DNA from: Candidatus Zixiibacteriota bacterium
Lineage (GTDB): Bacteria > Zixibacteria > MSB-5A5 > JAABVY01 > JAHJOQ01
Assembly: GCA_018820315.1 (NCBI GenBank)
Contig: JAHJOQ010000138.1
Span: forward strand, 1 to 64,000
Length of the DNA: 64,000 bases
Direction: 5' to 3'
The notes beneath the pieces are model-generated. The model saw only the letters and a list, made by a program, of their open reading frames with translations, had not been told where the DNA came from and made no database searches. The position numbers and the translations under genes were made by a program. Below, one piece after another: positions 1,524 through 4,426 of the stretch. Position 1 is the stretch's first letter; every line of letters starts with the position of its first letter.

Positions 1524-2027
1524 TCAGAAGCGCAGCGTGAACGTGACTCGCGGCCCGTCTGCCGTGATGGAAATGGCAGAAGGTTCCAAGGGAACACGCT
1601 CCCACTTCTTGCTTGCCGAGCCGACCGCCAAACCGATCAGACCGCCGCCCAGCGTGAACCCAATGAAGACGGGCGCGACCGCGTCCTCATTGACCTCCAT
1701 ATAGGGGTCGGATTTAACCTCAGCGTAACCCAGCAATGCCGCGGACAGCCCCATCGCGGCTCCAATCATGAACCCGGTGCCAGCTCTGGAGCCCTTATAG
1801 CGGTCCATGGCACGAATCTGTTCGCGTGGAATACTGAGCCTCTCCCCACCGGACTTCGTCGCAGTGAGGCTGTCGGATGTGAGAATTCCGTCTCTGGCTT
1901 CGATGCGCTGCCCGTTGTTCAACAGGACCCGGAAACGATCAAAGTCAACGATGTCCTGTGCCGCGGCTTGCTGTACGGCAAATAGAGCAGCCACAAAGAC
2001 CAGCGCTGACAAATGGAATGTTTTCAT
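1524..2027 (-). CDS. Secreted or membrane protein of unknown function with glycine-zipper-like helices
   Basis: A 167-residue protein with a cleavable-looking signal peptide (residues 1-23, cut near AAAQD). Residues 25-75 are a small beta-rich region (FRVLLNNGQRIEARDGILTS, then SIPREQIRAMDR) like the strand-rich segments of proteins that shield or sense the envelope. Two Gly/Ala-rich hydrophobic stretches follow (AGTGFMIGAAMGLSAALLGY and FIGFTLGGGLIGLAVGSA), resembling glycine-zipper helices. I do not recognise a named family. Its leader contains a REP hairpin and a promoter nearly identical to that of the RAYT gene next door. Confidence 0.7.
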   Translation of the reverse strand: MKTFHLSALVFVAALFAVQQAAAQDIVDFDRFRVLLNNGQRIEARDGILTSDSLTATKSGGERLSIPREQIRAMDRYKGSRAGTGFMIGAAMGLSAALLGYAEVKSDPYMEVNEDAVAPVFIGFTLGGGLIGLAVGSASKKWERVPLEPSAISITADGPRVTFTLRF

Positions 2028-2050
2028 AGACTCATCCCTTCCCAGTCAAG

Positions 2051-2260
2051 GGCAGGTCTTTCCGAGACCTGCCGATCTATGACCTATTCCTACTGTCCAT
2101 ATTCATTTCCGCACCGGCACTGCTGAGACGGCGCACGTTGTATAGCATGAATCACATCTCACCGTCTTGGCGCCCAATTCAGCCCCTGTCGTCGTTCGCA
2201 TTCCTTAGTATCAAATCAATCATACTTGGTCTGCCGCTCTTTGTCAAGGCAAATGGTGCT
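2051..2260 (-). mobile_element. Probable internally deleted copy of the neighbouring RAYT element
   Basis: The segment begins with a REP hairpin (ggcaggtct/agacctgcc, 2051-2059 and 2065-2073). Bases 2074-2133 then align with the 3' end of the RAYT gene (2325-2385): both share tattcctact.tccata and accggcac at the same spacing. Bases 2181-2260 align with 2954-3035 at the other end of the RAYT element (cagcccctgtc ... tgtcaaggcaaa). The central RAYT coding part is missing. This arrangement of matching ends without the gene is what a non-autonomous derivative would look like. The element appears to supply the promoter and leader of the gene ending at 2027. Confidence 0.6.
2219..2247 (-). promoter_or_regulatory. 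Consensus sigma-70-type promoter for the 1524-2027 gene
   Basis: On the minus strand TTGACA (2247-2242) and TATGAT (2224-2219) are separated by 17 bases. The same promoter, with the same flanking words, stands upstream of the RAYT gene at 2994-3022. Confidence 0.6.
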
Positions 2261-2301
2261 ATCTTGGTGCACGGGGAGAGGCTGTCCCACAAGTAAAGTA
2301 G

Positions 2302-2324
2302 GGCAGGTCTCCCCGAGACCTGCC
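2302..2324. repeat. REP hairpin 3' of the RAYT gene
   Basis: Perfect 10-bp stem ggcaggtctc/gagacctgcc with a 3-base loop. It is preceded by gtagg, and is the reverse complement of the copy at 2865-2887. Confidence 0.85.
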
Positions 2325-2340
2325 AATGTATACAATATTC

Positions 2341-2844
2341 CTACTCTCCATACTTCCCGTCCAAGACCGGCACGCCTGCGGTTCCCCAATCCGGGGCGTA
2401 ATATCCCTCCTCCTGATATTCGCGAAAAGAAGAGAAACGCCAGTCGCATGGACTGTCTGCATAGTCATGCTTAACCGGATTGTAGTGAATGTAATCGATA
2501 TGCCTGTTCATGTCATCTTGATCCCTGATCATGTGGTCCCAAAAACGACTTTGCCAGATACGACCACAATCCCTATGTAAGGCGTAACTGACCTTCTTTG
2601 AAAACGAGAGTTTCACCTTCTGGATGATTGATGAAAGGTTACATTTGCAGGGATCTATTATCATATGAGTATGATCCGGCAGCTCGACATGAGCAATGAG
2701 GCGGAAGACCATTTCGTGCATGTATTTCATGAGTGATTCCCAGAAGAGATGATGATGCGTTATGAGTATGCTCCGGCGCCTATAAGTTACCATTGTTATG
2801 AAGTAGATTTGACCGTCCGAAAAATGACGAAGCAGTTTTGACAT
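2341..2844 (-). CDS. REP-associated tyrosine transposase (RAYT), Y1_Tnp superfamily
   Basis: A 167-residue protein of the IS200/IS605-like HUH tyrosine transposases, in the REP-associated branch. The N-terminus (YFITMVTYRRRSIL) is the first core strand; the metal-binding HUH-type motif is HVELPDHTHMII (H-T-H); then IWQSRFWDHMIRDQDDMNRHIDYIHYNPVKH, in which the catalytic Tyr lies in the YIHYNPVKH block; the usual W-R-F-S-S-F tail follows. All core motifs are present, so the enzyme may be active. An in-frame TTG lies 6 bases upstream of the chosen ATG. No strong ribosome-binding site is seen. REP hairpins lie in its 5' leader and just past its stop, the arrangement expected of a RAYT acting on its own REPs. 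Confidence 0.92.
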   Translation of the reverse strand: MSKLLRHFSDGQIYFITMVTYRRRSILITHHHLFWESLMKYMHEMVFRLIAHVELPDHTHMIIDPCKCNLSSIIQKVKLSFSKKVSYALHRDCGRIWQSRFWDHMIRDQDDMNRHIDYIHYNPVKHDYADSPCDWRFSSFREYQEEGYYAPDWGTAGVPVLDGKYGE

Positions 2845-2864
2845 TTGCAAACTCTCTTCAAGTC

Positions 2865-2937
2865 GGCAGGTCTCGGGGAGACCTGCCCTACGTGCTGCAA
2901 GCTTCTTTCAGATCGGCAGGTCTCGGAAAGACCTGCC
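2865..2937. repeat. Pair of REP hairpins in the RAYT 5' leader
   Basis: Two hairpins in tandem, at 2865-2887 (ggcaggtctc/gagacctgcc) and 2915-2937 (ggcaggtct/agacctgcc, with a looser loop), each followed by ctac. Both are inverted relative to the REPs at 2051-2073 and 2302-2324. Confidence 0.85.
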
Positions 2938-2993
2938 CTACTTGGTTTCTCTATCAGCCCCTGTCATCAATCACATACTTCGATATCACTGCT

Positions 2994-3022
2994 ATCATAC
3001 CACGATCGGCGAATCGTGTCAA
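2994..3022 (-). promoter_or_regulatory. Consensus promoter for the RAYT gene
   Basis: TTGACA (3022-3017), 17-base spacer, TATGAT (2999-2994) on the minus strand. The transcript would begin about 145 bases before the RAYT start and include both leader REP hairpins. Confidence 0.6.
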
Positions 3023-3109
3023 GGCAAAATGGGGCAGGCCGGGTGGCGAGTCCTGAGCTTCAAAGGGTCTGCCGCCCACGTTGGGAATCAACCCTTGACA
3101 ATCATCATA

Positions 3110-3157
3110 GCAGGAAGGGATTCCTAACGGCGCGAAAACCGCAGAGGTTTTGACCGA
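3110..3157. repeat. Palindromic repeats of two dispersed families
   Basis: Bases 3110-3134 (gcaggaagggattcctaacggcgcg) match the palindrome at 4306-4335. Bases 3135-3151 form aaaacc/ggtttt, close to the tcaaaacc/ggttttga hairpin at 38185-38205. They lie just past the stop of the 3166-4149 gene and may help end its transcript, but no T run follows. Confidence 0.5.
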
Positions 3158-3165
3158 CCTCAGAG

Positions 3166-4149
3166 TTAGAAGATGCCGAAGACTCTGCTGCCGGAGCGCA
3201 TCACGCCGATGGTCAGCACAATCGCGCGGTCATCGTAGTCGTTGAAAGTCATGCTGTATTCGACAGTCGCAACCACGCGGAAATCATAAGTCCGAAATGC
3301 CAACATGCCACCCTTGAGTAGAATTTCGAATCCGTCATCGGCTTTGTCTTCCCGATTATCGTAGGCAGCAGGGCTGGCATATGTAGTCTCGTGCGACACC
3401 GCATGAAAACCGACACCAGCGCCGACATACGGACTGAAGTCTTTGTTGCTGACCAAATAGAGGCACCCAACATTGAGCGCGATGCCGTTTCGAATTCCGA
3501 GCAGTGCATCGACAGCTATATGCCGCATTTCAAAGATACTCCTGAAATCCCAGACGAAGAACCGGTCTTTATTGTCGTAATTGTCGTAGCCATCCTGCGG
3601 GTAGAGGTAACCGAATCCGATTCCCCAGGATGAATTCGCCTTACGCTCCTTTGATTCCTGCGACTCCTTCTCGGTCACGGTGCCGACCTCGATAGTTTTC
3701 TCTACAGGTTTCTGCTGAACAATACTCGCAGCAACCCGCTTTGCCACCTGATCAAGTTCTTCGACCTGCAATGCGGTCAAGTCATCAGAGAGAAGGGTCT
3801 CTCCTGAGGAGACATCGATTAGATGATATTGAAAGATGATCTTCTCGCCAAGCCTGTTCAAGCTACCGTAGACAACTTTCGATGCGCCCGTCATCGTTCC
3901 AATTTCTGCTGCACAGGCAGCATCCGCGCAAGTCCGATCGCCCATTGCTGATAGGACATCATTCTCGGAAACGATTTGGTATTTGTTCAACTGCGTGATC
4001 TCGGAGACCAGAAGCTGATGGACTGTCTCCTGAGTCGAGGCGTCAACACCTATCCCACTGAGCGGAAGAACCGCCAGTCGTTCCTGCGCCCAACAAATCT
4101 GTTGGCAGCTCAACAGAATCAGCGCGATCGCAAGGATTGTAATTCTCAT
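3166..4149 (-). CDS. Envelope protein: CsgG/LpoB-like N-terminal domain plus C-terminal beta-barrel-like domain
   Basis: The ATG at 4149 is chosen because GGGAGA lies 7 bases before it and it opens a signal peptide (MRITILAIALILLSC ... WAQ); a reading frame continues 24 codons upstream without a ribosome-binding site. The 327-residue product has, after the signal, RLAVLPLSGIGV ... a two-layer alpha/beta domain of about 130 residues typical of proteins that count or assemble envelope parts (CsgG, LpoB, FlgO type). It contains one Cys pair (RTCADAACAAE). A charged linker (EKESQESKERK) leads to about 140 residues of alternating strands ending in aromatic-rich VFGIF, which suggests an outer-membrane barrel. 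The exact role is unknown. Confidence 0.7.
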   Translation of the reverse strand: MRITILAIALILLSCQQICWAQERLAVLPLSGIGVDASTQETVHQLLVSEITQLNKYQIVSENDVLSAMGDRTCADAACAAEIGTMTGASKVVYGSLNRLGEKIIFQYHLIDVSSGETLLSDDLTALQVEELDQVAKRVAASIVQQKPVEKTIEVGTVTEKESQESKERKANSSWGIGFGYLYPQDGYDNYDNKDRFFVWDFRSIFEMRHIAVDALLGIRNGIALNVGCLYLVSNKDFSPYVGAGVGFHAVSHETTYASPAAYDNREDKADDGFEILLKGGMLAFRTYDFRVVATVEYSMTFNDYDDRAIVLTIGVMRSGSRVFGIF

Positions 4150-4305
4150 ATGATATCTCCCTCGATTAGCGGTATGCGAAATGTGTTTGGTTGCAGATCT
4201 TTTATCTGCTCTTCGATGCAAAGCTAATCCAAAACAACTCGCTTTGTCAAGGAAGACCTTTGCTTTATTGGTGCATGGGGACGAACGCCAACCACAGAAA
4301 TTTGG

Positions 4306-4331
4306 CCGTCAGGAAGGGATATTCCTGACGG
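4306..4331. repeat. Perfect 10-bp palindrome (CCGTCAGGAA family)
   Basis: Stem ccgtcaggaa/ttcctgacgg with a six-base loop, followed by cgcg as at 3110-3134. Upstream, 4214-4280 (tttgtcaagg ... ttggtgcatgggg) resembles 2240-2276, a third trace of the RAYT-element end. Bases 4150-4426 otherwise hold no gene. Confidence 0.6.
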
Positions 4332-4426
4332 CGCGTGGAGAGACTGATATCGAACAGCTTCATACAGAGTGGTGACTTGGACAAGCCGTCTTCGTGTGCG
4401 TTTGCAGCCCGATCGCCGAGAAGTAT

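Follow-up and report, generated by a model that had tools for sequence, protein, structure and literature searches.

An apparent 3' remnant of a second RAYT element beside an intact RAYT, and a dispersed promoter-leader family in the same genome

In the current view, RAYTs are domesticated transposases present in single copy, and the origin of small REPINs from RAYT-like elements is an open question. At the locus studied here, an intact RAYT gene lies next to a stretch resembling its two ends. Is that stretch an internally deleted tandem copy, as the original prediction had it, or an assembly of parts of different descent? The window, i.e., the whole stretch of 64,000 nt that was analysed, lies on contig C138 of an assembly of 3.78 Mb in 173 contigs, and genome-wide statements on the locus derive from sequence searches of this assembly. 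At its start, the window cuts into a 23S rRNA gene, after which comes 5S rRNA; these two were the only Rfam matches above threshold. The features of the locus are as follows.

1524-2027, minus strand: gene without a Pfam family, downstream of the RAYT stub and P2
2049-2078, minus strand: stub REP and inner flank, an exact 30-nt inverted copy of 2910-2939
2074-2133, minus strand: 3' tail of a putative second RAYT, frame broken and coding middle absent
2177-2266, minus strand: promoter-leader module P2 (TTGACA-17-TATGAT and leader), upstream of gene 1524-2027; 62.3 bits
2277-2294, plus strand: one terminal inverted repeat (18 bp, AGAGGCTGTCCCACAAGT) from a DDE-type IS, lying between P2 and the intact element
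2298-2324, minus strand: REP on the 3' side of the intact element, its GTAG/CTAC end pointing outward, an exact 27-nt inverted copy of 2865-2891
2341-2850, minus strand: intact RAYT coding sequence of 169 or 167 aa, depending on whether TTG 2850 or ATG 2844 is the start
2865-2891, minus strand: inner REP on the 5' side of the intact element, with GTAG facing outward
2892-2942, minus strand: outer 5' REP, i.e., the REP 2915-2937 and ~19 nt resembling the RAYT 5' flank
2951-3043, minus strand: promoter-leader module P1 (TTGACA-17-TATGAT and leader), preceding the RAYT, beyond its REPs; 73 bits

Among nearby genes, 1524-2027 had no match in the 38 relatives searched, metF had none in the 8 relatives searched, and 3166-4167 has a single distant match in GTDB r220, from a Neomarinimicrobiota MAG.

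The intact element, REP-RAYT-REP, spans 2298-2891, so that the unit originally delineated at 2293-3035 was drawn too wide: its promoter end (2950-3035) falls outside the REPs. The encoded protein exceeds the curated cutoff of NCBIfam REP_Tyr_transpos NF047646 (127.9 bits, cutoff 80), scores 27.1 bits against Pfam Y1_Tnp (cutoff 23) and matches the structure of TnpA_REP, PDB 4ER8, which we take to be the E. coli protein, with an E value of 3.9e-22. The HxH motif and the catalytic Tyr are present as H60, H62, and Y120, all invariant across the 10 sequences aligned, with Thr at the middle position of HxH where the other aligned sequences have Phe or Trp. By analogy with E. coli TnpA_REP, the protein presumably cuts GTAG-tagged hairpins, and its gene is likely driven by P1. 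RAYTs have been reported to be single-copy and not to copy themselves (PMC3116915; PMC8049555), and the window RAYT is likewise a distinct single-copy gene for its REP class, without IS-like amplification. Its best paralogue in the genome is 49% identical. Since no RAYT in the genome is closer than this, and the identity of the stub tail outside the REP is moderate, the proposal that the element moved or recombined recently finds no support.

Four REP palindromes of the form GGCAGGTCT-NNNN-GAGACCTGCC are found at the locus (2051-2073, 2302-2324, 2865-2887, and 2915-2937), two of them with one mismatch when read from one strand; a strict scan across the window detected no REPs away from the RAYT locus. 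At 821-835, where a further remnant had been suspected, there is a half-REP (ACCTGCCCTACTTGG, 17/18 positions). The intact gene is flanked by inverted GTAG-tagged palindromes, exact over 27 nt, and such palindromes beside RAYTs are a known arrangement (PMC3733652). This pair (2298-2324/2865-2891) is enclosed by the 30-nt exact inverted pair 2049-2078/2910-2939, the two copies of which have the loop and a GATCT inner flank in common, with the left outer end reading CTTG where CTAC is expected. The nesting fits two elements, one within the other, and is suggestive only; the match of the outer REPs could also stem from gene conversion. The outer 5' REP region is a 49-nt unit with 82% identity to 2846-2894. 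Single RAYTs can also have tandem 5' REPs, and hence the outer 5' REP need not come from a second element. Exact end pairs of 27-31 nt likewise surround single RAYTs (C89, C134, and G037), and at C89 it is the outermost 5' REP that forms the matching partner of the 3' REP.

As predicted, the similarity of 2074-2133 to the RAYT tail is above background, with a score of 33 compared to maxima of 26 among 1000 dinucleotide-preserving shuffles and 23 among 2000 random window segments. Against 19 other RAYTs, the same stretch scores at most 22, and a genome-wide search with tail and REP together retrieved 2300-2352 of the window RAYT as the best match (83% over 53 nt, E 1e-8). The tail match itself is short, comprising ~39 aligned nt with gaps. 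The other REP copies of the family examined elsewhere in the genome all lack a RAYT tail. Given that, among the RAYTs compared, the tail matches the window RAYT alone and that the other REPs inspected come without a tail, 2049-2133 is, judging from its sequence, the 3' end of a second RAYT element with a broken frame and of the same REP class as the intact one. The predicted second RAYT lacking its coding middle is thereby borne out, its tail and REP being assigned to the lineage of the window RAYT. Elsewhere in the genome, two candidate stubs (C40a and C40b) were rejected, because the match was carried by the REP. A third, at C45, where TATGGAGAGTAA follows the leader (score 29, null maximum 25), was noticed post hoc and is a possible further stub.

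The promoter end of the presumed copy belongs to a different kind of repeat. Its similarity at 2181-2260 is indeed above background (34, compared to a best of 26 both for shuffles and for random segments), and yet the 86-nt promoter end of the window RAYT has similar copies elsewhere in the genome. These form a family of ~95 bp, the aligned copies of which share TTGACA, a 17-nt spacer, a -10 box (mostly TATGAT) and a leader of ~50 nt. With a sequence-only model trained on nine copies, 14 members were recovered in the genome, 5 of them beyond the training set; a second model, trained with those 5 as well, yielded no further clear member in the genome, and among 20 relatives there was no clear match, with nothing better than E 0.017. 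Members are located at 2177-2266 and 2951-3043 of the window and on contigs C83, C117, C30, C45, C40, C75, C134, and C12. In a genome-wide search, the best matches of P2 were at C45 (82%, E 8e-7) and C117 (80%, E 3e-6), and P1, the promoter of the window RAYT itself, was absent from the matches at E<=1. Thus, of the two pieces of the remnant searched against the genome, tail and REP led back to the window RAYT, whereas the promoter piece did not. Transcription of gene 1524-2027 likely starts from P2, with the REP of the stub forming part of the leader. Another suspected remnant, 4214-4280, scores above background when compared with the upstream/-35 region of the remnant (32; best shuffle 29), whereas its score with the RAYT unit stays below (17; best shuffle 27), and is therefore a promoter or hairpin trace and not a piece of a RAYT.

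The genes behind the family members are unrelated. They include thsB-thsA of Thoeris (C117), a TIR-TM gene (C75b), a gene with a weak AbiGi match (behind C40a), and 2 RAYTs (C134 and the window RAYT), and several members precede genes without a family. C40a and C40b are 92% identical over a 75-nt core and have different genes downstream. Four pairs of members lie <2 kb apart, a number reached in none of 20,000 random placements, which ignore real insertion clustering. Near-identical promoter regions before unrelated genes are the hallmark of putative mobile promoters (Matus-Garcia 2012 and van Passel 2014, as cited in PMC8049555). These resemble the present family in placing the same promoter-leader sequence before unrelated genes; unlike them, the present family, the mobility of which is likewise putative, was found in one genome only, and close tandem pairs are common in it. 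It is conceivable, although we consider it unlikely, that the ~95-bp module spreads within the genome alongside RAYT/REP and IS activity, time and again bringing recently acquired defence genes (Thoeris, TIR-TM, and AbiGi-like) to expression, with gutted RAYTs such as 2046-2260 as intermediates. With its concrete loci, the family makes it possible to ask whether promoters disperse inside one bacterial genome and come to serve defence genes. Also dispersed is a distinct hairpin arm, GGTTGGYGTACGTCC, present on C14, C56, C73, C75, C125, and others (14 matches, compared to 1 in the control); several members of the promoter family have it upstream.

Between the two RAYT pieces lies the end of an IS. 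The 18-bp repeat at 2277-2294 is the terminal repeat common to both kinds of DDE-type IS end in the genome, and neither an IS body nor a partner repeat was found near it. At C45, an IS end occupies the same place before the P2-related promoter. With an IS end at this position, the junction between the two RAYT pieces appears to have been rearranged, the IS body being absent there, rather than to mark where a plain tandem duplication was joined. The IS elements with a DDE_Tnp_1_6/DUF772 transposase, which we take to be IS1182-like, carry the identical terminal repeat; unlike them, the window retains a single end without a body. Elsewhere, DDE-type IS elements apparently lie in or beside hairpin repeats (L085, L189, and L190, on C45, C59, and C26, respectively), and the flanks at several DDE-type IS ends are similar (CATCTGCC).

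How, then, did the locus arise? We think it fairly probable that two RAYT elements of one REP class are involved, one intact at 2298-2891 and the other kept as 2049-2133, perhaps together with 2892-2942. A second element of this class would once have stood at the site and the two would have been juxtaposed via sequential insertion, local duplication, or recombination between REPs. Deletion presumably removed the coding middle of the second element, the outer 5' REP with its short flank perhaps being another part of it, and the IS end and the promoter-leader member would have come to separate the two pieces. A simple nested insertion is harder to reconcile with P2 and the IS end being located within the supposed outer element. 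The course originally proposed, in which tandem duplication of a promoter-REP-RAYT-REP unit was followed by loss of the middle from one copy, both ends of 2046-2260 being copies of 2293-3035, seems to us rather unlikely. It would explain why promoter, tail, and REP follow in the same order and orientation and why both end similarities are significant; sisterhood of P1 and P2 is not rejected (AU p 0.33 and 0.16, the promoter-core trees having mostly little resolution), and other genomes hold a local duplication of a RAYT 3' end (G011) and a tandem deleted copy (G035). However, the promoter end belongs to a 14-copy family, the remnant promoter is closest to those at C45 and C117 and not to the RAYT promoter, the IS terminal repeat separates the units, and the remnant has no 5' REP. 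What survives of the deleted tandem copy is a RAYT 3' stub of the same REP class, the promoter end probably being of other descent.

Two further scenarios fare worse. That 2049-2939, bounded by the outer inverted REP pair, moved as a whole with the RAYT, the IS end, and P2 is very unlikely, despite the exactness of this pair over 30 nt, inner flank included, and the precedent of C89, where the outermost 5' REP is the one matching the 3' REP: the left outer end has CTTG instead of the expected CTAC, no second copy was found in the genome search, and REPtrons reportedly do not move as whole units (PMC6006769). Even less likely is an independent origin of the parts, i.e., a solitary REP beside a promoter, with the tail similarity arising by chance or by local gene conversion from the intact RAYT. 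REPs without RAYT tails do exist elsewhere in the genome and the tail match is short, yet its score surpasses those of all shuffles, the tail is correctly placed and oriented beside a REP of the cognate class, and tail and REP jointly single out the window RAYT genome-wide.

Stubs comparable to the one that we attribute to a second element of the same class were recovered in other genomes. Among 20 RAYT loci, two had another RAYT tail at a distance of up to 1.2 kb, namely the window locus and one in G035 (L062), where a derivative of ~190 bp, comprising a REP, a short 5' flank, a 54-nt tail (50/54 identical), and a REP, precedes an intact RAYT head-to-tail. A second pass of 36 loci, overlapping the first in part, added G011 (L053), in which the intact RAYT is followed by a copy of its own 3' end and a hairpin; the other matches of this pass were to the REP itself (L008), short (L036 and L041), or due to a neighbouring RAYT pair (L049). 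RAYT 3' stubs thus accompany intact RAYTs at 3 of ~41 distinct loci, in three genomes of one class, and such gutted RAYTs, keeping REP ends beside intact ones, represent candidate intermediates that can be compared. A literature search on internally deleted RAYTs returned nothing relevant.

With regard to known systems, the locus shares with RAYT/TnpA_REP (E. coli, PDB 4ER8) and REPtrons a Y1 HUH protein with HxH and Tyr, GTAG-tagged hairpins inverted around the gene, and a distinct RAYT and REP class per locus; it differs in housing a second, gutted element of that class, with a promoter module and an IS end occupying the junction. REPINs (Bertels and Rainey 2011, PMC3116915) consist of paired inverted REPs and lack a transposase gene. 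REPIN-like pairs are present in the source genome, whereas the window stub has one clear REP and RAYT coding sequence, which argues for a decayed REPtron rather than a standard REPIN. Overall, the window RAYT locus is real and mildly unusual, but of a known kind; the dispersed promoter-leader family, with defence genes behind some of its members, poses the more open question.

Several observations concern other repeats and insertions. At L140, L141, and L023, the stems of REPIN-like pairs differ between the two REPs (GGCAGGAGTG... with GGCAGGTTTC...). Another hairpin family, GCGCCGTCAGGAA...TTCCTGACGGC, is found at 3098-3136 and 4306-4338 of the window, and one copy overlaps the RAYT tail at C73 (L008), so that it may be the REP of that RAYT. 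At L122 (C117, ~1290-1400), a 3' fragment resembling 5S rRNA, continued by the sequence that also lies downstream of the 5S gene of the window, runs into a REP beside the Thoeris genes. Finally, at L059 (C83, ~2780-2942), a reading frame is broken by a RAYT element after ~20 codons (MNVFRIHIRPKGGNADVQPS); a related full-length protein, with a weak match (E 6), is encoded on a Gluconobacter plasmid.
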